Below, one piece after another: positions 6,511 to 61,882 of a DNA stretch of 64,000 nt. Numbering within the stretch: the first letter of the stretch is position 1; the number at the start of each line of letters is the position of its first letter. A program made the translations under genes and the position numbers. The DNA is from Lentzea aerocolonigenes. Lineage in GTDB: Bacteria > Actinomycetota > Actinomycetes > Mycobacteriales > Pseudonocardiaceae. A model generated the notes under the pieces. It was not told the origin of the DNA. It did no database searches and was given only the letters and a program-made list of their open reading frames with translations. Location of the stretch: NCBI RefSeq assembly GCF_000974445.1, contig NZ_BBOJ01000039.1, positions 1 through 64,000 of the forward strand. Reading direction: 5' to 3'.

Positions 6511-8337
6511 CTACGACACGACCAGCGCGTAGTCGGCGTCGGTCGCGGCCGTCTCGACGTGACCGTCCACGTTGACGTCGGTCGCGATCACCTCGATCGT
6601 CCAGGTGCCCGCCGCGGTCGACGAGAGCAGCACGTTCTCCACGGTGTCGACGGTGTTCGCGGTGCCGCCCGACGTGGAGAAGTTGCCGGCCAGCAGACCG
6701 TTGTTGCCCCAGTACACGGTGCCGTCCGGGGCGGTGACCTTCAACGTCAGGTCGTTGACCGCAGCCTTGGTCGCGGTCGGCGAACCGGCCGGGTCCGTGT
6801 ACGCCAGCGTCGCGCGCAGCGGCTGGCCGGTGGACGTGAAGGTGTACTTGCGCGACTGACCGGTCGTGAGGAGATCGGTCTCGTTCACCAGCACTGGCAG
6901 CTTCCAGCCACCTGCCTTCGCCCGGTCGTACAGGTTGCGGACCGACGCGGTGCCCCAGCCCTGGTGCGTGCGCGTCTGGTCGTGCGTGGTGCCGACGAAC
7001 GTGTACTGGTTGGCGGTGTTGATCAGCAACGCCTTCGCGGTCGCGGCGTGCGGGCGCGACGCGAACACGTCACGGCCCTTGCCGGGGCCGCCGTCGAACA
7101 CGCCGTCGGCCCACATCTGGAACATCAGACCGGCGTTGCCGCAGGTGATCGGCGTGGCGCCGGACGTGCCGCCGAACGACGTGGTGTAGGCCGTGTCGCT
7201 GCCGGAGGTCGTGGTGTCGATGCGGTCGTAGTAGTTGGAGATCTCGGGCTTGATGCGGCCGTCGGCGGCGGGGCCGATCGACGCGCCGCCGTTCCACTTG
7301 TCGTCCGCGCGGTCGAGGGTGTTGTAGTGGTAGTGACCGCCGACCGACAGCACGTTCTTCGCCCACGCCTGGGGACGCGAGCGGGTGCTGCCGGCGTTGC
7401 TCTGCGACTGGCAGATCAGGATGTCGTGGTCGAACACGATGCGGTCCATCTGCGCCGAGATCGAGTTGTAGCCCGTGGTGAGCGAGTCGCCCCAGCTGTT
7501 CGACTGGAACACCGCGCGGTACCGCCCGGCAGGGTCGACGAGCTGTTTGGTGTGCGCGTACCGGTCGGGGACGGTGGTGGTGCCGTAGACGGCCATGATT
7601 CCCTGGCCCTCGGGCAGTACGCCGCGGTGCGCGGACGAGACGCCGGACGCGAAGATCTGCCCGTACGTCGACGTGCCGTGGGAGTTCTCGGTGATGGCCG
7701 TGTGCTGCACCGGCGGAAGGGCGCGGAACTCCTGGTGCGTCAGGCGGAATCCAGCGTCCATCACCTCGCCGCGCACGCCCTGGCCGCGGTAGCCGCCCGC
7801 GGTCTCGACGTAGTTGGCACCGGAGGACTCCCGTGAGATCGCCATGTCCGTCTCGGGCGCCGACACGGGGTCGATGGCGATCACGGCGGGCAGCTTCGCG
7901 ACCTGCGCGACCTGACCGGCGTCCAAGGTGGCCATGATGTGCTCGCGACTGTCGGACACGACGTTGACCTTGCCGCCCAAGGACCTCACCTTGTCGGCGA
8001 CGACCTTCTGGTCGCGGGTGTCCTGCTCGGCCAGCGTGATCAGGTAGTCGGACGAGCCGCCCAGCGCCGCGATCTGCGGTTGCGCCTGGAACGGGCGCAC
8101 CTCGCGCACGTAGTTCAGCCGCGCGACGCGCGAGGTGCTCGTCATGCGTGCGATGTAGGTGCCGTCTTGGACGAACGCGCCGAGCCGCACGCCGAGCCCC
8201 TTGAGCTGGTGGCGGTGGGCGTCGGACAGCGTGGTGCGGAACTGCAGCAGGTAAGCGCTCTCAGCCGGAGCAGCGACGGCAGGAACGCCGCTGATCAGCG
8301 CGAACGCCGATAAGACTGACAATGTTGTGCGCAGCAC
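6511..8337 (-). CDS. Secreted subtilisin-like serine protease (S8 family)
   Basis: The protein has a Sec signal peptide (about residues 1-24, ending near AVAAPA), a ~150-residue propeptide-like region, and an S8 catalytic domain. The triad is D194 (in VMDAGFRL), H220 (in NSHGTS) and S392 (in FGGTSGATP). The C-terminal ~150 residues look like a beta-sandwich P/jelly-roll domain (LVNETDLLTTGQ to the end), as in many secreted actinobacterial proteases. The wide open frame starts at 8388, but GTG at 8337 is preferred. It has GGAGGT at the right distance (8345-8350) and places the signal peptide at the N-terminus. It probably acts outside the cell on proteins. Confidence 0.85.
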   Translation of the reverse strand: MLRTTLSVLSAFALISGVPAVAAPAESAYLLQFRTTLSDAHRHQLKGLGVRLGAFVQDGTYIARMTSTSRVARLNYVREVRPFQAQPQIAALGGSSDYLITLAEQDTRDQKVVADKVRSLGGKVNVVSDSREHIMATLDAGQVAQVAKLPAVIAIDPVSAPETDMAISRESSGANYVETAGGYRGQGVRGEVMDAGFRLTHQEFRALPPVQHTAITENSHGTSTYGQIFASGVSSAHRGVLPEGQGIMAVYGTTTVPDRYAHTKQLVDPAGRYRAVFQSNSWGDSLTTGYNSISAQMDRIVFDHDILICQSQSNAGSTRSRPQAWAKNVLSVGGHYHYNTLDRADDKWNGGASIGPAADGRIKPEISNYYDRIDTTTSGSDTAYTTSFGGTSGATPITCGNAGLMFQMWADGVFDGGPGKGRDVFASRPHAATAKALLINTANQYTFVGTTHDQTRTHQGWGTASVRNLYDRAKAGGWKLPVLVNETDLLTTGQSRKYTFTSTGQPLRATLAYTDPAGSPTATKAAVNDLTLKVTAPDGTVYWGNNGLLAGNFSTSGGTANTVDTVENVLLSSTAAGTWTIEVIATDVNVDGHVETAATDADYALVVS

Positions 8338-8581
8338 GAATAGAACCTCCACATCGGCAGGGGATGGAGGCGACCGGAGGTCAGTCACCGCCCGTGATCA
8401 GGACGTTACCGTGAAACACCAGGTCAGGACATCAGTCGATCGGCGGTGATCATCTTGACGGGCGGTGTAGAACAATCCCTTTGGCGGCCGATATTCACAT
8501 TCACCCGAATGGTGCATCCGGGGTAACGTCCGGTCAGGTATGCCCGACATGCCCGGCAAAGCATTTCCGCGCGGAGGACGG

Positions 8582-9544
8582 ATGTCTGTCTCACCTGAGC
8601 AGCTGATGGAAGAACTGCGCACGTTGTGCCGGGGGCGCGGTGTGCAGACTCCGGGAATCGACTTGCACGTCGGCCCGGCGCTGCGCCAGGTGTGCGGCAT
8701 CGTGGAGACCGACGGCGCGGAAGCCGTCAGAACGAAACTGAAGGACTGGGTGACGAACGCGGTGCGCGGTTTCCCGGTGGAGGTCCGCAACGCCGTTCTG
8801 GCACCGCTCGGACTGCACGAGGAAGCGCAGTTCCGGTTCCTCAACGAACGCATCGAGTGGCTCGCGAAGCAACAGGACCGCGGCGCGCGCACGGTGCGCA
8901 GGAGGATGGACGCCGGACTGCAGCGCCTCGTCGAGGTGGCACTGCAGCCGGTACCTTCGACGACGCACGCGGCGCCGTCGGAACTCTGGCACGTCAAGGA
9001 GTTCGACGCGCTGCTGAAGCTGGACGGCCCGACGCCCGCCTGCACGGAACGCCGGACCGTCGTGGCTGACACCGACGGTGTCAACGAGATCATCTGGTCG
9101 ATCACGATCCCCGCCCCCACGCCCGACGGTGCACCGGGGGATCTGGACGTGGAGGTGTTGCACGGGGTGGAGCTCATCGGCCACGAGCGTCCGTCCCCGC
9201 GGCGCTTCCTGATGAAGCTGCGGTTGCCCCGACCCCTCAACGCAGGGCAAACACACCAGTTCGCACTGGAGGTGCGGGTACCGCGGGGACAATCGATGCG
9301 TCCGACCTACGTGTTCTGGCCGGAGCGGATGTGCGAGTCGTTCCGGTTGCGGGTGCGCTTCGACCGGGACGACCTGCCCGAATCGGTGTGGCGCGTCGAG
9401 GAGGCCCTGGCTCGCGACACCGACGACCTGACACCTTGGCCGAGAAAGCTGCCCGTCGACGAGATCGGCGAGATCGACGTGTCGTTCCCGCATCCTCGTC
9501 AGGGCCGCGGCTACGGCGTGCAGTGGATGCCACGCGGTGCCTAG
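8582..9544 (+). CDS. Conserved-looking hypothetical protein, 320 residues
   Basis: I do not recognise this protein. An ATG at 8582 is chosen because GGAGGACGG sits directly upstream; an ATG 42 bp earlier has none. The first ~140 residues are predicted helical and begin EQLMEELRTLCRGRGVQ, a short element also found at the start of other actinobacterial regulators. The last ~180 residues look like beta strands and end in a PRQGRGYGVQW segment. It has no signal peptide or membrane segment. It is a single gene between the divergent protease gene and the 33-residue reading frame at 9635-9736. Confidence 0.75.
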   Translation: MSVSPEQLMEELRTLCRGRGVQTPGIDLHVGPALRQVCGIVETDGAEAVRTKLKDWVTNAVRGFPVEVRNAVLAPLGLHEEAQFRFLNERIEWLAKQQDRGARTVRRRMDAGLQRLVEVALQPVPSTTHAAPSELWHVKEFDALLKLDGPTPACTERRTVVADTDGVNEIIWSITIPAPTPDGAPGDLDVEVLHGVELIGHERPSPRRFLMKLRLPRPLNAGQTHQFALEVRVPRGQSMRPTYVFWPERMCESFRLRVRFDRDDLPESVWRVEEALARDTDDLTPWPRKLPVDEIGEIDVSFPHPRQGRGYGVQWMPRGA

Positions 9545-52187: not shown

Positions 52188-53320
52188 ATCTGCAGGAGAC
52201 CCTTGGGAGAGCCGTAGGTCCGGCCGCACTGCGTCAACGCGAGCACGCCGTGCCCCTCCACGTCGCCCTCGAAGTACGTGGGGTCGACCGACAGCTCCTC
52301 CGCGACCTCGGTCGCCCAGATGTCCTCCAGGTCGTCGTTCTCGTCGCTCCAGTCGTGCGGCAGGCCCCTGCCGTCCTCCACGTCGAGCTCGCCGATCTGC
52401 TCCTCCGCCTTGAACGCGTCGTAGTAGCGGACGATCTCGCCGTCCTCCGCGATGCACCACGCCGTCCAGCCGTCGCCGCAGCTCATGCCGTAGTAGTGCG
52501 CCTCGCCGAACACCGCGCTCAGCACCGCGCAGATCTCCGTGACGCTGCGGGTTCCGTGCGCGAACGGCTCACCGAACACGAGCGTCCAGCCGTCCCACGC
52601 GCCCGTCACGTAGACCCTGGCGCACTGGACGTGCTCGTCGTCCTTCGCGAACACGTGCTGGTCGTTGTTCCAGGCGGACGCGCCGAGAACCTTGGTGACA
52701 GGTACCGGATCGTGGAGTCCGCAGACGCCGAGCACGGCCTTCTGGTTGTCGGTCCTGATCGCGTACCAGCCGCCGCAGAGGTGCATCTCCTCGGTGCCGT
52801 ACTGCTCGTCTTCGATCTTGACGCCGATGAACCGTTCGATCATCTTCCGGTCCTGCGGCGACACCGCGTCCGACCCGGCGACCTCGACGATGCCCGCCAG
52901 CGCGGCCCTGCGCACGGCGCCCTTGGCCGTTCTCCGCGTCTCGTGCAGCAACGGCAGGACGTCCGGTCCCATGGTCCCGAACGCCCACAACGCTTCCCGT
53001 TGCGCGTGGTGGTCCTCGTCCGCCAGCAGCGGCAGGAGTTCCCTGGCGTGCTTCAACGCGTGCTCGCCCCGGAACATGCTCGCGGCTTCCCTGCGCACGG
53101 CGTGGTGCGGGTGCCGCAGCGCCGCGAGGTAGACCTCGTCACCGGCCCGCAGCAAGGAGAACGCCCGGCACGCCTGCCGCACGACCTGACCGTCCTCTGA
53201 GGTCGCGATCAGCTCCACCACTTCGTCAAAGGCCGTTACGCCCTGCTCCCGCACGAAGTCCTCGACCTCGCGTCTGAAGTCGTCGAGGTCCATGCGGTCG
53301 AGCAGCGCCCGGATCTCCAT
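52184..53320 (-). CDS. HEAT-repeat protein with a C-terminal domain of unknown type
   Basis: The 378-residue protein begins with alpha-alpha HEAT-like repeats (about residues 30-165; examples are GQVVRQACRAFSLLRAGDE and HHAVRREAASMFRGE). The C-terminal ~200 residues are a beta-rich domain with a cysteine/tryptophan-rich centre (GEAHYYGMSCGDGWTAWC and ARVYVTGAWDGWTLVFGE). No family is recognised for that part. HEAT repeats mediate protein-protein contact. Convergent overlap of 4 bp with deoR occurs at the 3' end. Confidence 0.75.
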   Translation of the reverse strand: MEIRALLDRMDLDDFRREVEDFVREQGVTAFDEVVELIATSEDGQVVRQACRAFSLLRAGDEVYLAALRHPHHAVRREAASMFRGEHALKHARELLPLLADEDHHAQREALWAFGTMGPDVLPLLHETRRTAKGAVRRAALAGIVEVAGSDAVSPQDRKMIERFIGVKIEDEQYGTEEMHLCGGWYAIRTDNQKAVLGVCGLHDPVPVTKVLGASAWNNDQHVFAKDDEHVQCARVYVTGAWDGWTLVFGEPFAHGTRSVTEICAVLSAVFGEAHYYGMSCGDGWTAWCIAEDGEIVRYYDAFKAEEQIGELDVEDGRGLPHDWSDENDDLEDIWATEVAEELSVDPTYFEGDVEGHGVLALTQCGRTYGSPKGLLQI

Positions 53321-53361
53321 GGCGCGGCAGGATACGCGTGCCTTGACTCGCCGCCCCGCAG

Positions 53362-53378
53362 TTCGGCAGTCTGCCAAA
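53362..53378. promoter_or_regulatory. Near-perfect palindrome upstream of the second P450 gene
   Basis: TTCGGCAG-T-CTGCCAAA has 8-base arms with one mismatch, ending four bases before the P450 start codon. This size and centre resemble TetR-type operators. No TetR regulator gene is adjacent. Confidence 0.5.
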
Positions 53379-53381
53379 CTG

Positions 53382-54689
53382 ATGAGTACGTCAAGCCTGG
53401 CAGAGGAGCACGTCAAACCGGCGGTGCGCTGGGGAATCGGCCACGCGCTGCCACGGGCGGTGCTGCGCCTCGCCGCGCGCCGCGGCGACCTCCAGGGTCG
53501 CATCACCGTCGAGGCCTCCACGGGCGCCGACCTGACCGGCCTGTTCGACGAGATCCGCGCCCGCGGCCCGCTAGCCGCCACGAAGGTCGGCCACACCACC
53601 ACCCGACACGAGGTCGTCAAGGCCGTGCTGGGCGACGACGCGTTCATCACCGCCCGCCCGCGGTTCGGCGCCGGCGTGCTCGGCAAGCTGGCCGCGTGGT
53701 CCGCCACGAACGTGATGCACCCGGTCCAGCCACCGTCGCTGCTGGCCGTCGAACCGCCGTCGCACACCCGCTACCGCAAGCTCGTCACGCGGGTCTTCAC
53801 CGCCCGCGCGGTCGAGCAGCTGCGCGGGCGCACCCAGCAGATCACCGACGAGCTGCTCGACGACCTCGATCCGGCGAACCCGGTCGACCTGATCGAGGCC
53901 TACTGCGGCCTCCTGCCGGTCACGGTGATCAGCGAGATCCTCGGCGTGCCACCGGAGGAACGCGCCACCGTACTGGCCCTGGGCGGAGCCGCCGCCCCGA
54001 GCCTCGACCTGGGCCTGTCGTGGCGCGTCTTCCGCGACGTCGAAGCCGGCCTGACGACGTTCGACGCCTGGCTCACCCGCCACCTCGACGCCCTGCGCGC
54101 CAACCCCGGCGACAACCTGTTCAGCCGCCTGATCACCGCCCGCGAGGACGGCGTCGGCCTCACCGAACGCGAGCTCAAGGCCACCGCGGGCTTGGTGCTG
54201 GCGGCGGGTTTCGAGACCACGGTCAACCTGCTGGGCAACGGCATCGCGTTGCTGACCAGGCACCCCGAGCAGCTGGAACTGCTGCGCTCGAAGCCGGAAC
54301 TGTGGGCCAACGCCGTCGACGAGGTGCTCCGGTTCGACCCGCCGGTCCTGCTGACCGGCCGCATGTGCGCGCAGGACACCACGGTCGCGGGCATTCCCGT
54401 GCGGCGCGGCCAGATCGTCACGACCGTGCTCGCGGGCGCCAACCGCGACCCGTCCGTGTTCTCCGACCCCGGCACGTTCGACGTGACCCGCCCGAACGCC
54501 CGAGACCACGTGTCGTTCGGCGCCGGCCGCCACTACTGCCTCGGCGCGCAGCTCGCACGGATGGAGGGCGAGATCGGTCTGCGCACGATCTTCGACCGCT
54601 TTCCCGGCCTGCGTCTGGTGCCAGGTGCGCGACGCCGTCCCACCCGCATCCTGCGCGGCTTCGAGCACCTGCCCGCCGTGCTCTCGTGA
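53382..54689 (+). CDS. Cytochrome P450 (second of two)
   Basis: The 435-residue P450 has the I-helix AAGFETT, the ExxR as EVLR and the heme loop FGAGRHYCLG with C386. Phe in the AGFETT variant replaces the usual His/Asp before the acid-alcohol pair. Its N-terminal 50 residues precede the usual first helix and contain LPRAVLRLAARRGDLQGR, as in CYP families that associate with membranes or unusual substrates. No redox partner gene is adjacent. It is separate from the peptide operon, which begins beyond its 3' end on the other strand. Confidence 0.9.
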   Translation: MSTSSLAEEHVKPAVRWGIGHALPRAVLRLAARRGDLQGRITVEASTGADLTGLFDEIRARGPLAATKVGHTTTRHEVVKAVLGDDAFITARPRFGAGVLGKLAAWSATNVMHPVQPPSLLAVEPPSHTRYRKLVTRVFTARAVEQLRGRTQQITDELLDDLDPANPVDLIEAYCGLLPVTVISEILGVPPEERATVLALGGAAAPSLDLGLSWRVFRDVEAGLTTFDAWLTRHLDALRANPGDNLFSRLITAREDGVGLTERELKATAGLVLAAGFETTVNLLGNGIALLTRHPEQLELLRSKPELWANAVDEVLRFDPPVLLTGRMCAQDTTVAGIPVRRGQIVTTVLAGANRDPSVFSDPGTFDVTRPNARDHVSFGAGRHYCLGAQLARMEGEIGLRTIFDRFPGLRLVPGARRRPTRILRGFEHLPAVLS

Positions 54690-54695
54690 CGGCGG

Positions 54696-55229
54696 CTAGG
54701 CCGGGCCCGCGACGAGGTCGGCGAGGTCGTCGAACCGCACCACCAGCACCGCGCCGATCGCGCCGACGACCACCGCGAGCGCCAGGGCGGCCGTGGTGAC
54801 CTCGGCGTTCACGAAGAACGAGCCGAGCCCGAGCACGGCGATGCCCAGCAACGCGGCGTTGCGCACGACGTGGCGGTGCGTGAGCTTGGTGCTGGTCCGG
54901 CCGAAGCACCGGCACACCGCGCCGGACCGTTGTGCCACCGCGCGCCACACCGCCGCGGTCAGCACACCGAACAGGCCCGTCGCCAGCACCAGACCAGCGA
55001 CGGCGGACCACGTACCGACGATCGCGGACGCGAGCAGCAGCACGGCGATCACGAACTCCGCCACCACGGTCGCCACGGCGAACAGGCGCGTCCAGCGCGC
55101 CGGGATGCCGAAGGCCGGCACCGACGCGACGAACTCCGCGTAGTCGGTGCGGCTGCGCACCTTGCTGACGGCGGACACCACCAGAACGAGTCCACAAAGG
55201 ACTGTAGACGCCACGCTCAACACCACCAC
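54696..55229 (-). CDS. MauE-like (DoxX-related) membrane protein
   Basis: The 177-residue protein has four membrane segments and matches methylamine-utilisation MauE: VSAVSKVRSRTDYAEFVASV, then LFAVATVVAEFVIAVLLL. A CxC pair (C106, C108) sits in VCRCFGRTS, where MauE proteins carry redox cysteines. MauE and MauD are needed for disulfide formation in the methylamine dehydrogenase small subunit. Here no dehydrogenase is encoded. The triple GTG at 55229, with AGAGGTGAC upstream, is the start. It is the last gene of the peptide operon, one base after the signal-peptidase stop. Confidence 0.82.
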   Translation of the reverse strand: MVVLSVASTVLCGLVLVVSAVSKVRSRTDYAEFVASVPAFGIPARWTRLFAVATVVAEFVIAVLLLASAIVGTWSAVAGLVLATGLFGVLTAAVWRAVAQRSGAVCRCFGRTSTKLTHRHVVRNAALLGIAVLGLGSFFVNAEVTTAALALAVVVGAIGAVLVVRFDDLADLVAGPA

Positions 55230-55230
55230 G

Positions 55231-55650
55231 TCACCTCTGACCGATCGGGCGGACCACGATGCCGATGAGCGCGTCCGCGCGGAGGTAGCCCAGCCGCCGG
55301 GAGTCGTTGCTGCGCTGAGGGTTGTCACCGAGCACGAGCAGGCTGTCGACCGGCACGCGCGGGCCGGGCACCGGAATCTGCGGCGGCACGGGATCACCGG
55401 GCACCGCCACCGCGCGTTTCACCAGGCGACCGCCCGTCGGGTCGCTCGGCGCGGCGCCGTCGATCTGCACCACGACGACCTGGCCGGCACGGACGCGGCG
55501 GAGTTTCGCCTTCCGCACCAGCAGCCGGTCGCCGGAGTGGTAGGTCGGTTCCATGCTGACGCCGTGCACCGTCACCACCAGCAAACGGCTGCGCAGCACG
55601 AGCAACCAGGCCACCAGGGCCAACGCGAGCACGACCACTACCCAGATCAC
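55231..55650 (-). CDS. S26-family signal peptidase
   Basis: The 139-residue enzyme has one N-terminal membrane anchor (WVVVVLALALVAWLLVL). Catalytic S32 lies in VHGVSMEPT, and K78 is in RLVKRAVAVPGD. The family's GDNPQRSNDSR box lies near the C-terminus. This is a compact type I signal peptidase, smaller than housekeeping LepB. Its placement in the operon suggests cleavage of the cysteine-rich peptide; that peptide has an A-K-A sequence at residues 18-20. The start overlaps the ABC gene's stop by 4 bp. Confidence 0.9.
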   Translation of the reverse strand: MIWVVVVLALALVAWLLVLRSRLLVVTVHGVSMEPTYHSGDRLLVRKAKLRRVRAGQVVVVQIDGAAPSDPTGGRLVKRAVAVPGDPVPPQIPVPGPRVPVDSLLVLGDNPQRSNDSRRLGYLRADALIGIVVRPIGQR

Positions 55651-57479
55651 CCGGTCACCACCTCGTCATAACCTGAAGCCTGCAGGCGGAAGAGCCTCGC
55701 GTACTCCCCGCCGCCGGCCATCAACTCTTCGTGCGTTCCCCGCTCGGAGACCTGGCCGCCGGCGAGCACGGCGATCACGTCCGCGTCCCGGACCGTCCCG
55801 AGGCGGTGCGAGATCAGCACGCTCGTCGCCCCCTCGCGGTGCCGCCGAAGACTGCTGTGCACCTCGTGCTCCGCCTGGGCGTCCAGCCCGGAGCTCGGCT
55901 CGTCCAGGATCATCAGGTCCCTGCGGTCGCGCAGGAACGCCCGCGCCAGGGCGAGCCGTTGCCACTGGCCGCCGGACAGCAGCACCCCGGTCTCCGGGTC
56001 CTCGCGGTCCGCCTCGTCGAAGTACAGGCGCGACAGCAACGTGTCGTAGCCGCGCGGCAACGCGGTCACCACGTCGTGCGCTCCCGCCCGGTGCGCCGCC
56101 GCGACGACCCGTTCCCGATCGTCCATTGAGGACACATCGCCCAGGCCGATGTTCTCGGCCGCACTGAGGTCGTACCGCATGTAGTCCTGGAACACCGCGC
56201 CGATGTGGGCGCGCAGGTCCTCGACAGGGAGCGAACGCAGATCGGCGCCGTCCCACAGGATCGCGCCGCGGCACGGGTCGTAGAACCGGCACAGCAGCTT
56301 GACGATCGTCGACTTCCCGGCGCCGTTCAGCCCGACCAGGGCGAGCGAGGTGCCGTGCGGGATCGTCAGGTTCACGCCGCGCAGCACCCACGGCTGGTCG
56401 TCGGCGTAGCGGAACCAGACGTCGCGCAGCTCGATGCCGGACCGCAACGCCGGAACCTCCGCGGGAGCGACGGCGACCGGCAGGTCCGGCTGTTGCTCCT
56501 CGATCTCCCGGTAGTGGTGGAACAACAGCACCGAGTGGTGCGCGGAGGCGAGGCTGTGCACGAGGCTCTGCGACGCGCTCTGCACCCCGGCGACCGCGGC
56601 CACGAACATCGCCACGTCACCGATCGACAGCGATCCCTCGGCCGCGAGCCACACCGACCAGACGAGGCCGGCCGCCGACACCAGCGCGGTCAGCCCGGCG
56701 AGCAGGCCCTGCACCCGCGCGTCACGCCGGTCCTGGCCCTCCACCACGGCGTGCGCCGCGGTGAGCTCGACGAGCATCCGGCGCCGGAAGAGGTCGCCGA
56801 GCCCGAGCAGGCGCAGTTCCTTCGCCGCGTCCAGGCTCGACAGCAGCTCGGCGTAGAAGGCCTCCCGCCGCTCGGCCGGGGTGATCGACCACATGACCTC
56901 GGCCCTGGCCCTGCTGAGGCGGAGGTGCGCGAACAGCGCGGGGACGGCCGCGAGCAGCACGATCACCGCCATGCCGGCGTTGAGCACCAGCAACGTGGCG
57001 AGGAACCCGCCCGTGGTGATGGTCGCCTGCACCGCGCCCAGTCCGTTGTCGACGAGCCTGCCGGGACCGTTGCGGCCGGTCTGCTGCGCGAGCTGGAGCT
57101 TGTCGCGGAACCGCGGGTCCTCCATGCGCGCCAGCCCGGTGAGCCGGTCCATCGCCCGGTACAGGCGGTCCATGGTCAGCACCGCGACGGAGCGGTCGAG
57201 GCGTTCCCGCAGGTACTGCGACGCCACCGGGAGCAGGCCGCTGACCAGGCCCGTTGCCGCCAGTGCGACCGCCCACGGCACCAGCGCCGCCCAGGCCGTG
57301 CCCGCGGCCAGGCCGTCCAGCAGGATCTTGGTGCACCACGCCGCCGCGAGCGGCGCAACGCCGCCGAGCAGGTTGAGCACCACGTACGCAGGGGTGCCCG
57401 CGGGTGCCGCCGTCCTGGTCAGCCCGAACGCGCTGACGAGGAGCGACAGCACCCTGCGGGCGCCGAGATCGGTGGTCAC
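55647..57479 (-). CDS. ABC exporter (fused membrane and ATPase domains)
   Basis: The 610-residue half-transporter has a six-helix membrane domain (about residues 30-320) and an ABC ATPase. Walker A is GLNGAGKS (K389), the signature LLSGGQWQRLALARAF, Walker B DLMILDEPSSGLD, and the switch His is in LISHRLG. It has no N-terminal C39 peptidase domain, so processing must be done by another enzyme, probably the S26 protease encoded next. GTG at 57479 overlaps the upstream stop (GTGA). It should export the operon's peptide. Confidence 0.9.
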   Translation of the reverse strand: MTTDLGARRVLSLLVSAFGLTRTAAPAGTPAYVVLNLLGGVAPLAAAWCTKILLDGLAAGTAWAALVPWAVALAATGLVSGLLPVASQYLRERLDRSVAVLTMDRLYRAMDRLTGLARMEDPRFRDKLQLAQQTGRNGPGRLVDNGLGAVQATITTGGFLATLLVLNAGMAVIVLLAAVPALFAHLRLSRARAEVMWSITPAERREAFYAELLSSLDAAKELRLLGLGDLFRRRMLVELTAAHAVVEGQDRRDARVQGLLAGLTALVSAAGLVWSVWLAAEGSLSIGDVAMFVAAVAGVQSASQSLVHSLASAHHSVLLFHHYREIEEQQPDLPVAVAPAEVPALRSGIELRDVWFRYADDQPWVLRGVNLTIPHGTSLALVGLNGAGKSTIVKLLCRFYDPCRGAILWDGADLRSLPVEDLRAHIGAVFQDYMRYDLSAAENIGLGDVSSMDDRERVVAAAHRAGAHDVVTALPRGYDTLLSRLYFDEADREDPETGVLLSGGQWQRLALARAFLRDRRDLMILDEPSSGLDAQAEHEVHSSLRRHREGATSVLISHRLGTVRDADVIAVLAGGQVSERGTHEELMAGGGEYARLFRLQASGYDEVVTG

Positions 57480-57982
57480 CGGGTCGCGCGAGCAGGAAGC
57501 GCGGACATCTCCCAGCCGCTCCCGACGACGGTCGAGTCGTCGTCGACCACGCACATCGCCGGGTAACCCTCCGTGCCGAACGCGGTGTGCAGTGGACCGC
57601 CCATCTCCTCGACGACGACCTCGGCCACCTCACCGAGCCGCACGACCAGGTCGGCGATCTCGTCGGCGTCTCCCGCGGCGACGGCGATCACCTTGCCGTG
57701 GTGGCCGGTCGCGTACTCGATGAACTCGGGCAGGCGTTCCTTGCAGGCCTCGCAGTTCGGGGAGAAGAAGCCGACCAGCGCACCGTTGACGTCCACATCG
57801 GACAGTTCGATGCGGGTGCCCGCGGGGAACATGATGGGCGGCTGGGCCGCCGACTGCCTCTCGCGAAGGTTGCGCAGCGTCTCGTTCTGCTCACGCAACC
57901 GCCGGATGATGCCGAAGCTCAGCAACAGGTCCAGCACGCACAGGATTCCGACGACCACGACCGCGGCGGTCAGCACTGACAT
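57476..57982 (-). CDS. Membrane-anchored MauD/TlpA-like thioredoxin-fold protein
   Basis: The 168-residue protein has an N-terminal membrane helix (LTAAVVVVGILCVLDLLLSFG) and an exported thioredoxin-like domain. The active-site CEAC (C77, C80) is in FFSPNCEACKERLPEF, the MauD form of the motif. GYPAMCVVDDD is the cis-proline region, with a further Cys. It is the likely disulfide catalyst for the cysteine-rich peptide, with MauE as its membrane partner. It follows the peptide gene by 70 bp and overlaps the ABC gene by 4 bp. Confidence 0.88.
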   Translation of the reverse strand: MSVLTAAVVVVGILCVLDLLLSFGIIRRLREQNETLRNLRERQSAAQPPIMFPAGTRIELSDVDVNGALVGFFSPNCEACKERLPEFIEYATGHHGKVIAVAAGDADEIADLVVRLGEVAEVVVEEMGGPLHTAFGTEGYPAMCVVDDDSTVVGSGWEMSALPARATR

Positions 57983-58015
57983 GGGAAGGCTCCGAAGCTA
58001 GTGGGGAACGGGAGA

Positions 58016-58046
58016 GCCGTGAGCGGCGGGACACGCCGCTCACGGC
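58016..58046 (-). terminator. Perfect hairpin between the peptide gene and its operon
   Basis: GCCGTGAGCGGC (58016-58027) and GCCGCTCACGGC (58035-58046) form a 12-bp stem with a 7-base loop. It begins six bases after the peptide stop codon, reading on the minus strand. It probably works as a partial terminator or RNA stabiliser, giving more peptide mRNA than downstream enzyme mRNA. Confidence 0.7.
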
Positions 58047-58052
58047 GTCTGG

Positions 58053-58259
58053 TCACGGGCCGCAGGTCCGGAAGACCCGGCACTCGCCGCAGGTGGTCAC
58101 GCAGCCCATGTTGGTGGAGCAGTACCGCCGGAAGTCACTGCGCTCACGGCAGTAGCAGTGCTTGTAGAACGGGTCCGGCGGGCAGCCCGCGCCCACGTCG
58201 GCCTTGGCCACGAACATGCCGAGCAGCTTGTCGCTCAGCGTCTCCAACGTCTTGCGCAT
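58053..58259 (-). CDS. Cysteine-rich precursor peptide, 68 residues
   Basis: The protein has a charged amphipathic N-terminus (MRKTLETLSDKLLGMFVAKA) and a C-terminal part with eight cysteines (residues 26, 35, 37, 47, 53, 57, 60, 66), Gly, Pro and Arg. An A-K-A at 18-20 fits a signal-peptidase I site and would give a 48-residue mature peptide starting at Asp21. Eight cysteines suggest four disulfides. GGGAG precedes the ATG at 58259. It heads the operon of thioredoxin-like, ABC, S26 and MauE-like genes, so it is the probable product. I do not recognise the family. The biological target is unknown. Confidence 0.75.
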   Translation of the reverse strand: MRKTLETLSDKLLGMFVAKADVGAGCPPDPFYKHCYCRERSDFRRYCSTNMGCVTTCGECRVFRTCGP

Positions 58260-58324
58260 GTGTCGCGCTCCCTCACTTCCTCGGCGCCGGGTGGCGTCGG
58301 TGGCGCAAACGTAGGAAAAGCGGG

Positions 58325-58415
58325 TACACAGCCACGCCCAGCGCGGATACACGGGCGCGTGTAGGCCGTGTCGGCGGTGTGTCAGCGGCCACAGCCAAGA
58401 TCGCCGGTGTGTCAG
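58325..58415. promoter_or_regulatory. Direct repeats in the peptide/SARP divergent promoter
   Basis: Two TACAC boxes, each after GGG or GGA (58325-58329 and 58348-58352), lie 23 bp apart in direct orientation. An 11-mer CGGTGTGTCAG occurs at 58375-58385 and again at 58405-58415, 30 bp apart; the second copy includes the SARP start codon. SARP activators bind direct heptamer repeats spaced by about one or two helical turns, so these are candidate sites. Confidence 0.4.
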
Positions 58416-60163
58416 TCGAGTTCAGGGTCCTGGGGAGGATCGAGGTGCGAGCCTGCGGCACGAGCGTGGCGCTCGGCTCGCTCAAGCAACGCCTCCTGCT
58501 CGCCGCACTGCTGCTCAACCCCGGCCGGACCGTGCCGATCCGCAGGCTGGTCCGCGTGCTGTGGGGAGACGAGCCACCCATGTCCGCGGTCGCGAACCTG
58601 CGCACCTACGCCAACCGCCTGCGCCAGGTGCTGCCGGACGGCGCACGACGCCTCGCCGGCAGGCAGGCCGGGTACGAACTCGTGCTCCAGCCAGGAGAGC
58701 TGGACCTGCACCTGTTCACCGAACGCGCCGACGCGGGCAGGACGGCGCTGGCCTGCGGTGATCACGCCACAGCCGTGCGGCACCTCGGCGAGGCGCTCTC
58801 GGCGTGCCGGGGCGCTGTGCTCGAGGACCTGGCCGACTGCGACGCCCTCGCCGCGTCGATCGCCCAGGTCGAGGAGCTGCGGCTCACGGTCGTCGAGGAC
58901 CACCTCGACGCGCGGTTGGGGCTGGGCGAGCACCGCGAGGTGATCACACCGCTGCGCGAGTTCGCCGCCGAACACCCGTTGCGGGAACGCCCGCGAGCCC
59001 ACCTGATGACCGCGCTGTACCGGTCGGGCGACCTGGCGGGAGCGCTGTCCGTCTACGCCGACTACCGCAGGGTGATCGCGGACCGGCTCGGCCTCGAACC
59101 CTCGCCGGATCTGGTGAAGCTCCACCAGTCCGTGCTCGACCGCGATCCGGGGCTGACGGCGGTCGTCACCGCGCGCACTTCCCTGCACGCGCCCAGGGAG
59201 CTCCCGGCGCGCTGCCGGTCGTTCACCGGCCGCGACGCCGAGGTGGCGCGGTTGCAGGCGATGCTGGCCCGCAACGAACCCGCGGTCGCCGTGGTGCACG
59301 GGCCGTGCGGTGCCGGCAAGAGCGCGCTGGCGCTGGAGGTCGCGCACCGGGCCGCTCCGGTGTTCCCCGACGGCCAGCTCTACATCGACCTCCGTCACGA
59401 AACCCGTGTCGCACACCGGTTGCTGCGGCACCTGGGCGCTGCCGACGTGCCGCACGCGGTGGACGAGACGGCCACGCTGCTGCGGTCCAGGCTCGCCGAC
59501 CGGGCGGTGCTCGTGGTGCTCGACGGCGCGACCGATCCGGCACCGTTGCGCGACCTGCTGCCCGCGACCGGCCCGTGCGCGGTGCTGATCACCAGCCGGT
59601 CGCCGTTGCTGCTGGACGGCGCTCAGCACGTCCGGGTCGGACCTCTGTCCGATGTGGACGGGCTGGAGCTGCTGACGCGGCTCGCACCGGGCGCCGCGTC
59701 CGAACCCGCCGCCGCGACCAGGATCGCGCGGTACTGCCACGGAATTCCGCTGGCGCTGCACATCGCGGGAGCGATCCTCGCCCACCGCCCCGGACGCTCC
59801 GCGTCGTGGCTCGCGGACCGCCTGGCGTCCGACCGGCGCAGGTTGTCCGAGCTGAGCTTCGGCGGCGAGTCGGTCCGCGCCGCCTGCGCCACCGCGTTCG
59901 GTGCCGTCACCGACCCGCTGGCCGCGACCGCGTTCCGGTTCCTCGGACGCAGCGACACGTGCGACGCCGCCACCGCCGCCCTCGCGCTGGGCACGGGCCT
60001 GCTGGAGACCGAGGCCGCGCTGGACCAGCTCGTCGACCTGGGCCTCGCCGAGTGGGGCGACGGCGACACCTACCGCCTGCCCGGCCTGATGCGGCTCTTC
60101 GCCGCCGAACTGGGTCCGCCGCGGTGCCGCACTACCGCGTCAAGCCTTCGGCAGCATCCCTGA
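58409..60163 (+). CDS. SARP-family transcriptional activator with truncated NB-ARC domain
   Basis: The 584-residue protein begins with an OmpR-like winged DNA-binding domain (about residues 1-95, FRVLGRIEVRACG and LVRVLWGDEPP). The bacterial transcriptional activation domain follows (100-245), together the SARP signature. A nucleotide-binding NB-ARC region comes next with P-loop VHGPCGAGKSALA near residue 296. The usual C-terminal TPR region is missing, so it is a shortened AfsR-type protein. It is divergent from the peptide operon and is its likely activator. The GTG start has no strong ribosome-binding site. Its 3' end overlaps the amidohydrolase gene by 32 bp. Confidence 0.88.
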   Translation: MSVEFRVLGRIEVRACGTSVALGSLKQRLLLAALLLNPGRTVPIRRLVRVLWGDEPPMSAVANLRTYANRLRQVLPDGARRLAGRQAGYELVLQPGELDLHLFTERADAGRTALACGDHATAVRHLGEALSACRGAVLEDLADCDALAASIAQVEELRLTVVEDHLDARLGLGEHREVITPLREFAAEHPLRERPRAHLMTALYRSGDLAGALSVYADYRRVIADRLGLEPSPDLVKLHQSVLDRDPGLTAVVTARTSLHAPRELPARCRSFTGRDAEVARLQAMLARNEPAVAVVHGPCGAGKSALALEVAHRAAPVFPDGQLYIDLRHETRVAHRLLRHLGAADVPHAVDETATLLRSRLADRAVLVVLDGATDPAPLRDLLPATGPCAVLITSRSPLLLDGAQHVRVGPLSDVDGLELLTRLAPGAASEPAAATRIARYCHGIPLALHIAGAILAHRPGRSASWLADRLASDRRRLSELSFGGESVRAACATAFGAVTDPLAATAFRFLGRSDTCDAATAALALGTGLLETEAALDQLVDLGLAEWGDGDTYRLPGLMRLFAAELGPPRCRTTASSLRQHP

Positions 60164-61331
60164 CAGCACTCGACACGTCCTGGTGTGCGACCTCGACTCC
60201 GCCCACGAACACCCGCTCGACGTTGCCGGGGTGGGCCGCCGTGACGACCGCGGCGATCGGGTCGCGGGCGCCGAGCAGGTTGAGGTCGGAGGCACGCAGC
60301 ACCACCAGGTCCGCGTGCTTGCCCGGGGTGAGCGACCCGACGCGGTCGGCCAGGCCGAGGGCAGCGGCGCCCTCGACGGTCGCCATCCGCAGCACATCGG
60401 CGGGTGTGACGTGCACACCCTCGCTCAGGTGCGCGGACAGCAGGGTGGCGCGCATCAGCGAGAACATGTCCCCCGCCACGCCCGTCACCGAGTCGACGCC
60501 GAGACCGGTCGGCACGCCGAACGCACGGGTGCGGCGGACCATAGGCGTGCCGTGGCCCATGCTCGCCTCCACCGCCGGTGCGATCGACACGCTCGCGCCG
60601 GCGTCGGCGATCAGCTTCAGCTCGTCGTCGGGAAGACCGTTGCCGTGCACGAACGTCGTGTTCTCGTGGAGCAGGCCGCGGTCGTGCAGCAACGAGATCG
60701 GGTTCCCGTGACCGGCGACGTGCGTGACCACGCGCAGGCCGAGCGATTCGGCCAGCCGCCAGTCGTGCTCGACGGCCGTGACGTCCGAAAAGGACGGTCC
60801 GAGCGGTGCCAGTGCGATGTCGACCAGCCCGCCGCCCAGTTCGGCGCCACGCTCGACATCGCCGGGGTCGCAGGCAGGGCCGAACACCGGCTGGCCGTAA
60901 CCGAACACTGCGCGGACGCCTGACTCTCTGAGGGCCTGCACTGCGGCCTCGGCGTGCGCGAACGTCGGTGCGAACGAGAAGTCCTGCACCGTCGTGACGC
61001 CGGACGCGAGGCACTCCAGCGCACCCGCCAGCGTCCCGACCGCCAGTTGCTCCGGCGTGAGCACCGCCTGGACCGGGCGCAGCATCTTCTCCAGGTACTC
61101 GCCCAGCGACATGTCGGCGCAGAACGACCGCACCAGCACCTGCCACAGGTGCCGATGGGTGTCGACGAACCCCGGCAGCACGATCCGGTCGGTGCAGTCG
61201 ATCACGGTCTCGGCTTCCAGTTTCTCGCCTGTTGCGGCGATGCGGCCGTTGTGCACGAGCACGTCGGTGCCGGGTTTCGCCACGACCGGGTCCGTGTCGA
61301 TCACGACGGCGTTGCGCAGCACGAAGTCCAT
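60132..61331 (-). CDS. Amidohydrolase (SAH deaminase / chlorohydrolase-like)
   Basis: The 399-residue metal-dependent enzyme of the TRZ/ATZ (cytosine deaminase-like) branch has metal-binding H-x-H in VDTHRHLW, histidines in VTHVAGHG and FVHGNGL, and an aspartate in GVDSVTGVAGD. The N-terminal beta-strand module is VLRNAVVIDTDPVVAKPG. It hydrolyses an amine or halide from a ring substrate such as an adenosine derivative; the substrate is not defined. It is divergent from a MarR regulator, with 62 bp between starts that contain a clear palindrome. Confidence 0.87.
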   Translation of the reverse strand: MDFVLRNAVVIDTDPVVAKPGTDVLVHNGRIAATGEKLEAETVIDCTDRIVLPGFVDTHRHLWQVLVRSFCADMSLGEYLEKMLRPVQAVLTPEQLAVGTLAGALECLASGVTTVQDFSFAPTFAHAEAAVQALRESGVRAVFGYGQPVFGPACDPGDVERGAELGGGLVDIALAPLGPSFSDVTAVEHDWRLAESLGLRVVTHVAGHGNPISLLHDRGLLHENTTFVHGNGLPDDELKLIADAGASVSIAPAVEASMGHGTPMVRRTRAFGVPTGLGVDSVTGVAGDMFSLMRATLLSAHLSEGVHVTPADVLRMATVEGAAALGLADRVGSLTPGKHADLVVLRASDLNLLGARDPIAAVVTAAHPGNVERVFVGGVEVAHQDVSSAVRDAAEGLTR

Positions 61332-61350
61332 CAGATTCCCCTCAGTCGAA

Positions 61351-61366
61351 AGCTTTCCTAAAAGCT
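61351..61366. promoter_or_regulatory. Palindrome between amidohydrolase and marR genes
   Basis: AGCTTT-CCTA-AAAGCT has perfect 6-base arms with a 4-base spacer, centred in the 62-bp divergent gap. It is a good candidate for the MarR binding site. The gap is much richer in A and T than its surroundings. Confidence 0.6.
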
Positions 61367-61393
61367 ATCACGATGTGCAATAGGCTCTGACCT

Positions 61394-61882
61394 GTGACGG
61401 ATCGCGTGGAAGAACTGCTGGGCAGGTGGCGGGCGGAGCTCCCAGAGGCCCTCGTCGCGAGCTCGGAGCTCAGCAAGCGCGTGATGGTCATCTCGGGCCT
61501 GCTGGGCGAGGTCACCCGCGCCACCGTGACGCGGTTCGACCTGACCGGCGCCGACTTCGACGTGCTGGCCACGTTGCGCCGCAGCGGAAAGCCCTACCGC
61601 CTCAAGGCCAACGAGCTGAGCCGATCACTGCTCCTGTCGACCGGCGGCACGAGCAACGTGGTGAACCGCCTGGTGAGCCGCGGCCTGGTCGAGCGCGAAC
61701 CGGACCAGTCCGACGGCCGCAGCACCTTCGTGCGCCTCACACCGGACGGCCGGACGCTGGCAGAGGAGGTCGTGATCGCGAACAGCAAGGCCCACGACGA
61801 GGCTTTGTCCGCGATCCCCGCGGACGTGCTCGACCGCGCCACGACCGCGCTCCGCGAGCTGTTTTCGCACCTTCCAGGCTGA
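61394..61882 (+). CDS. MarR-family transcriptional regulator
   Basis: The 162-residue protein has the MarR winged helix near residues 55-115: FDVLATLRRSGKPYRLKANE, then LSTGGTSNVVNRLVSRGLVE and the wing REPDQSDGRSTFVRLT. It should repress the divergent amidohydrolase gene, and itself, through the palindrome between them. A small-molecule ligand, perhaps the enzyme's substrate, would release it; this is inference. Confidence 0.88.
   Translation: MTDRVEELLGRWRAELPEALVASSELSKRVMVISGLLGEVTRATVTRFDLTGADFDVLATLRRSGKPYRLKANELSRSLLLSTGGTSNVVNRLVSRGLVEREPDQSDGRSTFVRLTPDGRTLAEEVVIANSKAHDEALSAIPADVLDRATTALRELFSHLPG

Follow-up and report, generated by a model that had tools for sequence, protein, structure and literature searches.

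Within a 64,000-nucleotide stretch of Lentzea aerocolonigenes DNA (contig NZ_BBOJ01000039.1, positions 1 to 64,000; hereafter the window) lies a minus-strand operon that encodes a small cysteine-rich peptide, a membrane-anchored redoxin, an ABC exporter, an S26-type protease and a MauE family membrane protein, with a SARP-type regulator divergent from it. The operon most probably represents a leader-guided secretion and oxidative-folding module for ribosomal disulfide-rich peptides, with hypervariable cores, which is also carried on Streptomyces plasmids. A conserved leader, cores no more alike than shuffled sequences and an even number of cysteines together point to leader-guided folding and export of fully oxidised peptides. 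From its sequence, the window operon seems to belong to a large and little-studied arsenal of venom-like peptides, served by a four-gene kit in soil actinomycetes. The features of the window are as follows.

58053..58259, minus strand: precursor peptide of 68 residues with eight cysteines; leader 1-24 and predicted 44-residue disulfide-rich core 25-68
58188..58259, minus strand: leader, residues 1-24; predicted cut after V22-G23-A24; consensus over 79 core clusters
57476..57982, minus strand: membrane-anchored ResA/TlpA-like redoxin, CEAC motif C77/C80 (library scans, family profile, alignment)
55647..57479, minus strand: ABC exporter, fused permease-ATPase without a C39 domain; likely GTG start, the open frame reaching 57554
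55231..55650, minus strand: S26 signal-peptidase-type protease, S32/K78 (Pfam and NCBIfam)
54696..55229, minus strand: MauE family membrane protein, CRCFG motif; start 55229 or 55223 (Pfam)
58412..60163, plus strand: SARP-type regulator (BTAD and NB-ARC), divergent; start approximate (Pfam, NCBIfam)
58324..58363, minus strand: operator-like element TACACG-N6-TGTAT-N18-TGTAC in the SARP/peptide intergenic region, immediately 5' of TTCCTACGTT

Leader, cysteine number and core variability

The leader was modelled as a hidden Markov model (HMM) trained on loci L031-L129, from which only peptides with two or more cysteines were admitted; a looser regular expression for the leader preceded it. Across 139 loci the HMM gave 161 matches at E<0.05, against one in the same DNA reversed, and 160 of the 161 are at most 4 kb away from a redoxin or ABC gene. 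These comprise 159 unique precursors near machinery, from which two without A-x-A were dropped (one of them, in L058, a likely false match), leaving 157. Leader and core were split at the first [AV]-x-A, which falls four residues early for some precursors, that of the window included, and leaves the cysteine counts unaffected.

An even number of cysteines follows the leader in 155 of the 157 unique precursors (4 in 5, 6 in 71, 8 in 58, 10 in 20 and 12 in 1), and in all 76 precursors from loci outside the training of the HMM. The leader itself is free of cysteine in 156/157, the exception (L110) having seven in all and six in the core. Since relatives are not independent, cores were clustered at 35% identity with cysteine pairs ignored, and the representatives of 77 of the resulting 79 clusters have an even number. 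Between clusters, leader identity is 0.35 versus 0.16 when shuffled, and core identity outside the cysteines is 0.13 versus 0.12. Cysteine accounts for 17% of core residues. There are 24 orders of C and CC among the 79 clusters, and C-C-CC-C-C, presumably a knottin-like order, is that of ten representatives.

The leader columns were taken from the alignment of the 79 clusters, which replaces an earlier position table blurred by the split rule. They read D 0.85, R 0.83, L 0.84, V 0.62, P 0.96, A 0.96, x and A 1.00, giving a consensus of D-R-L-L...V-P..A-x-A with the variants D-R/K-L-L, V-P/A and A/V-x-A, in a predicted helix. The last column is alanine in 78/78 rows with a residue there, these rows having been preselected for [AV]-x-A (2/159 dropped). 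Several precursors, non-identical and up to seven in number, are found in 20 loci. At L186 (3779-9665), seven non-identical precursors are arranged around one machinery set.

In the precursor of the window all eight cysteines lie beyond residue 25. The earlier note on this DNA had placed cleavage at A18-K-A20, for a product of 48 residues. The conserved site is A24, invariant in two alignments of 16 and 23 homologues, and the sequence indicates that the precursor is probably cut after it to give a 44-residue core with cysteine spacings of 8-1-9-5-3-2-5. The calculated monoisotopic mass of core 25-68 is 5092.09 when oxidised and 5100.15 when reduced, against 5434.24 for a 21-68 product. The window precursor has no match in Pfam or NCBIfam, and the profile of its subfamily has none among PDB sequences. 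In all, nine precursors compared with Pfam and NCBIfam gave no family match, one reaching CYYR1 at E 0.19, below the cut-off of that family. The membership of a known unrelated family that the earlier note had allowed for was therefore not seen in these libraries. The best AlphaFold model of the core has three beta strands with a predicted local distance difference test score (pLDDT) of 75-85.

Occurrence across genomes and plasmids

A search of 199 relatives with the peptide gave ten peptides at E <= 6.4e-32, that of the source genome included. The scan of the named genomes yielded 21 loci in Lentzea, Amycolatopsis, one Nocardia-titled record, Kibdelosporangium, Nonomuraea, Planomonospora and Rhizohabitans. 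In L031-L041 (Lentzea/Amycolatopsis/Kibdelosporangium-type, one Nocardia-titled) the SARP, precursor, redoxin, ABC, S26 and MauE genes stand together in 11/11, an arrangement which places the window operon far beyond chance. The peptides of these eleven are 67-82% identical, and the MauE of L039 is truncated by the contig end. The order of genes differs in L042-L051, where precursor, redoxin, S26 and SARP are present in 10/10, ABC in 8/10 and MauE in 5/10 (tblastn, 1e-4).

Around weak peptide matches in distant genomes (L052-L058), redoxin, S26 and ABC genes were found in 7/7 stretches and MauE in 6/7, and each holds at least one unrelated-looking cysteine-rich peptide bearing the same kind of leader. 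An eighth such stretch (L059) has none of the four machinery genes. A profile search with the peptide in 394 genomes of the class matched 32 genomes at 61 places (E <= 0.05). Forty stretches cover 46 of these places, and a redoxin with at least two of ABC, S26 and MauE is present in 38; L129 has ABC and S26 only, and L117 no gene of the system. Two further places are the window itself and a second locus of the source genome. Among the 13 weakest, two (L254, L259) have the whole system and a leader-type precursor; the other 11, with neither leader nor system, are taken as chance matches. The expectation of the earlier note that homologues of the peptide keep these neighbours is thus borne out, L129 in part and L117 apart.

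A second set of loci was located by the redoxin, not by the peptide. For this the leader HMM was frozen, and ten plasmid and 60 genomic loci not in its training were scanned without the cysteine filter. With the peptide itself, a search of plasmids found only a spurious Rhizobium match. With the redoxin, 12 plasmid records were matched and ten taken, two further Streptomyces atratus records (H8, H9) being set aside as probable duplicates. A leader-type precursor with 4, 6 or 8 cysteines is present in 10/10 of these, two of which (L132 and L135) share an identical precursor, and MauE in 9/10. The replicons of L130-L138 belong to Streptomyces and Embleya, are listed as plasmids and include a 111-kb circular plasmid of S. 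atratus; in annotated cases, integrase or transposase genes lie close by.

The genomic set consists of the 60 redoxin loci with the best E-values in genomes first reached through a survey of one family, in which 58 of 150 genomes had a redoxin match at E<=1e-12 and six had 4-8 places. One of the 58 (G539; E 4.5e-15, inside a 998-residue frame) is probably not of this kind. Five stretches of the survey closely resemble a Nonomuraea locus at the DNA level over at least 2.6 kb (L233 and L044 are 88.6% identical over 6.1 kb), and the surveyed family is therefore probably Streptosporangiaceae. A phylum-wide redoxin search at E<=1e-20, for which genomes were drawn evenly over the phylum and few candidates were scored in each, matched 2/396 genomes. 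Precursors at E < 0.05 were found in 51/60 genomic loci, that of L196 at 5.7 kb from the redoxin. Among the remaining nine, five (L212, L218, L220, L223, L229) were seen by eye to have cysteine-rich A-x-A precursors with a diverged leader, and L231 a candidate with nine cysteines. The earlier note had reasoned that operon homologues should not lack a cysteine-rich small gene. This held in the 10/10 plasmid and 51/60 genomic loci, with six more by eye, and failed in three. A second leader subfamily, ASLxPN-like before A-x-A and missed by the leader HMM, was observed in L212, L220, L223 and L231.

Machinery, mechanism and role

The six genes of the window lie where the earlier note had put them, with the 68-residue, eight-cysteine peptide at the head of the minus-strand operon and the SARP gene divergent. 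A gap of 70 bp separates the precursor gene from the redoxin gene. The ABC protein matched transporter domains but not the C39 peptidase in the Pfam scan, in agreement with its first description; its start is probably 57479, not 57554, as read from the GTGA overlap with the redoxin stop. The protease matches PF10502 at 1.7e-21 and has both residues named before, S32 and K78, presumably the catalytic pair. The MauE gene product matches PF07291 at 2.5e-20, and its cysteines are correctly numbered C106/C108 for the GTG start at 55229, one base from the S26 stop, or C104/C106 with the start at 55223. The divergent regulator combines PF03704 (BTAD; 5e-39) with NB-ARC, an arrangement seen in SARP regulators. 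The NB-ARC part has a sub-cut-off NCBIfam resemblance to TPR proteins of some clusters for ribosomally synthesised and post-translationally modified peptides (RiPPs).

The redoxin cysteines C77/C80 stood as described and are invariant in an alignment of 18 sequences. The 'MauD-like' identity was not supported, as the redoxin scores 11.8 bits with the MauD equivalog model (TIGR02661), whose cut-off is 188.6. The libraries type the window redoxin weakly, the ResA subfamily being the best-scoring type at 2.7e-6, and the redoxin-family profile matches ResA structures. ResA-type thiol-disulfide oxidoreductases can reduce, which, with the high cysteine content of the cores, lends something to a different and improbable reading, that of an exported metal binder (metallothionein- or copper-chelator-like) whose thiols are kept reduced by the redoxin. 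However, the even number of cysteines in 77/79 clusters would be needless for metal clusters, the CxCFG motif of MauE suggests an oxidase partner, and no metal-homeostasis gene was seen to recur in the neighbour clustering described below.

The HMMs for the machinery started from the window proteins and were extended with sequences of these same loci. All four machinery genes and a precursor are present in 103/139 loci, these having been chosen via the peptide or the redoxin. Motifs counted before the last 60 loci were kept in 79/81 redoxins (CxxC), 67/70 MauE proteins (CxC[FL]G) and 78/79 S26 proteins (SMxP). The commonest gene orders are precursor-MauE-redoxin-ABC-S26 (26 loci) and precursor-redoxin-ABC-S26-MauE, that of the window (15 loci). 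Two redoxin paralogues each were observed in L094 and L096, one with the second cysteine of CxxC replaced (CGPT), which suggests a division of labour.

Neighbouring open reading frames of at least 90 residues were clustered in 112 loci. Only one other neighbour is widespread (61 loci, the next commonest in nine), and it is identified with the SARP because the SARP model matches within 6 kb in 76/128 precursor loci. No modifying enzyme recurs at this size, and no lanthionine synthetase was matched in Pfam or NCBIfam among the six window proteins. Both results make a thioether RiPP, lanthipeptide-like with enzyme-made cysteine cross-links, a very improbable product, and a Cys-Ser/Thr linkage would give no reason for the even-cysteine rule; what it shares with the precursors is a leader followed by a core with Cys, Ser and Thr, and A-x-A processing sites are known in some lanthipeptides. 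No recurrent large subunit was seen either, and no search aimed at mauA or mauB of methylamine dehydrogenase was made. It would be equally surprising, then, if the peptide were the small, MauA-like subunit of a secreted redox enzyme not yet recognised, with a Mau pair of its own for maturation. The MauE domain is there, and Mau proteins do mature a disulfide-rich small subunit (PMC7794033), but cores which outside the cysteines are no more alike than shuffled make a common cofactor site unlikely.

The findings support one dedicated system with a cysteine-rich peptide substrate and a MauE protein outside a methylamine-gene context, as first proposed. 'One dedicated peptide' is true of the window locus and understates a large family. 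PF07291 occurs at three places in the source genome, two of them in systems of this kind and the third weak. The second system (L174, contig C35) has MauE and redoxin fused in one frame (8284-9216), the only such fusion in the 139 loci, and a 53-residue precursor with six cysteines (9281-9442, minus strand). Around the window operon, P450, amidohydrolase and MarR-type genes (53292-54689 and 60132-61882; named by sequence reading, not by family scan) were observed as flanks. They adjoin the operon in some Lentzea loci (L031, L035) and not in L032 and L033 among others.

The window has a BTAD regulator adjacent to the operon, as is expected of SARP-regulated operons. In the intergenic region between SARP and peptide, the element TACACG-N6-TGTAT-N18-TGTA[C/G] precedes a TTCCTACGTT-like sequence in 12/12 cases (window and L031-L041). 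Elsewhere in the 2.16 Mb of locus DNA scanned it was found only in further copies of the window. The element may be the SARP operator. Shorter TGTA repeats with 15-17 bp spacing, a range that excludes the 18-bp element of the window itself, were found upstream of 0/159 precursors and in 0/5000 of the background.

From family knowledge and the constancy of the gene set, the following mechanism is proposed. The SARP would turn the operon on via the shared intergenic region. The 24-residue leader would act as a common address label recognised by the membrane machinery, and would stay the same as cores diverge, in the manner of venom-peptide superfamilies. The redoxin would oxidise the precursor and be re-oxidised by MauE, the ABC exporter would carry the peptide out of the cell, and the S26 protease would cut after A/V-x-A, freeing a 44-residue peptide with four disulfides. 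Given one leader and differing payloads, this machinery may serve disulfide-rich cargo in general.

Disulfide formation is commonly placed outside the cytoplasm. Among 142 redoxins, the stretch before the membrane helix is without net charge in 138 and carries -1 in four, and the mean charge in the 12 residues after the helix is +1.94. The CxC loop of 114 MauE proteins has a mean charge of +4.7 and, given five helices, shares its side of the membrane with the first loop (+2.3). In the L174 fusion, provided its five predicted helices are correct, MauE CKCFG and redoxin CGPC share one side, and its loops carry +3 and +4 versus +1 and -2. The charges and the natural fusion argue for both redox motifs on one face, which by the positive-inside rule would be the cytoplasmic one. 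A positive N-terminus is expected of outward-facing anchored redoxins, and it is seen in two other N-terminally membrane- or lipid-anchored redoxins of the source genome, only some of whose redoxins are readable in this respect. Two points weigh against an inward-facing pair: the positive-inside rule is statistical, and S26 examples, enzymes which usually face outward, also have arginines after their helix. A tentative reading of these sequence features is that redoxin and MauE form an inward-facing oxidative folding machine, which would make the disulfides of the leader-tagged peptide at the cytoplasmic face before export, one type of machine serving dozens of unrelated cystine frameworks. 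If true, bacteria would have their own equivalent of a venom-peptide superfamily, with the disulfides arising on the 'wrong' side. The face at which they form also bears on the roles of MauD and MauE.

The most likely role of the product is antagonism of a bacteriocin-like kind, which is favoured by the hypervariable cores, the tandem copies and the carriage on plasmids. The same module could instead make a signal of the developmental or quorum type, or a structural peptide for the surface of the producing cell. This is rather unlikely, although it is the alternative with most in its favour: a SARP lies within 6 kb in 76/128 loci, no immunity gene of at least 90 residues recurs, and the window subfamily has a frozen core. 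The hypervariability of cores family-wide, the 20 loci with several non-identical precursors and the several places per genome fit arsenals better.

A number of observations count against a folding and export module for antagonistic peptides. No recurrent immunity gene was found among neighbours of at least 90 residues (smaller frames were not clustered), an unusual situation for a bacteriocin. HCYCRERSD, a motif of the core, hardly varies within the window subfamily from Lentzea to Nonomuraea, across two families, which resembles a fixed target or signal more than an arms race; together, the unchanging core and the absence of an apparent immunity gene speak for a signal, or for a target that is safe for the producer. 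MauE was not detected in 23/139 loci and so is not strictly required at the locus. Three of the 60 genomic redoxin loci (L181, L191, L210) have no precursor; their machinery is incomplete, with an S26 fragment in L181, no ABC or S26 in L191 and no S26 in L210. Odd cysteine numbers occur in two neighbouring precursors of L053 (8377-8766; seven each), the sole odd ones among the HMM matches, and in the diverged precursors seen by eye in L223 (seven) and L231 (nine). For the L053 pair, a covalent dimer is a possibility. The mean pLDDT of the five AlphaFold core models runs from 69 down to 39.5, and fold searches with the predicted core gave no significant matches.

Comparison with known systems

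In bacteriocins of the pediocin and sublancin type, one operon encodes a leader-bearing peptide, an ABC exporter and a cognate disulfide-forming protein. The system described here likewise keeps a leader peptide, an ABC exporter and a dedicated thiol oxidoreductase together. That type has a double-glycine leader cut by the C39 domain of the exporter, whereas here there is an A-x-A site, a separate S26 protease and MauE, with neither a C39 domain matched in the window exporter nor a GG site in the leader. The lanthionine synthetase that marks a lanthipeptide operon was not matched among the six window proteins either. In the maturation of methylamine dehydrogenase, MauE and a membrane redoxin serve a cysteine-rich small protein. 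The window shares the MauE protein and a membrane redoxin with a cysteine-rich small partner, but differs in the lack of a MauD equivalog match, in tiny hypervariable peptide substrates and in having ABC and S26 genes as members of the set. Laterosporulins (PDB 4ozk, 6lwy, 6lwz) were among the rows of the predicted-core fold searches, in which no match was significant. They are small bacterial bacteriocins stabilised by disulfides, a kind to which the peptides here may also belong.

The actifensins of Actinomyces are leader-bearing, degenerate disulfide-rich peptides, with up to seven copies per operon and ABC genes (PMC6989792). The two systems are alike in being actinobacterial, leader-bearing and multi-copy, with ABC genes and low identity among members. 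Actifensins have one six-cysteine defensin framework, a mean identity of 52%, a subtilisin-like protease, a LuxR regulator and several ABC genes, and the passages available from that report name no redoxin (PMC6989792). The present system has 24 cysteine frameworks in 79 clusters with S26, redoxin and MauE. The actifensin framework C-X5-12-C-X3-C-X9-10-C-X4-5-C-X-C (PMC6989792) is not that of the eight-cysteine window core.

The closest prior description is that of decRiPPter (2020), in which three candidate RiPP families of Streptomyces have mauE, one also mauD, and each precursor at least eight cysteines (PMC7794033). The authors likewise propose reuse of Mau proteins for peptide modification, as a prediction only, and call what MauD and MauE do unclear and a matter of speculation (PMC7794033). 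Compared by description only, the window has the same combination of mauE (PF07291, 2.5e-20) and a precursor with at least eight cysteines. Nothing later on mauE RiPP clusters was found in the PMC papers searched, most subscription papers lying outside that scope. If the module is as proposed, the genomes of actinomycetes encode disulfide-rich peptides as a large library. The decRiPPter text, in the passages available, names no shared leader, cysteine parity or spread beyond Streptomyces (PMC7794033). Beyond those passages are the leader held in common, the recurrence of the S26/ABC/redoxin/MauE set from family to family, the even-cysteine rule, the hypervariability of the cores, the MauE-redoxin fusion and the pattern of topology. 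What was a one-paragraph prediction on three Streptomyces families is thereby defined as a system, by its leader signature, its fixed machinery of four genes and the prediction that all cysteines are paired.

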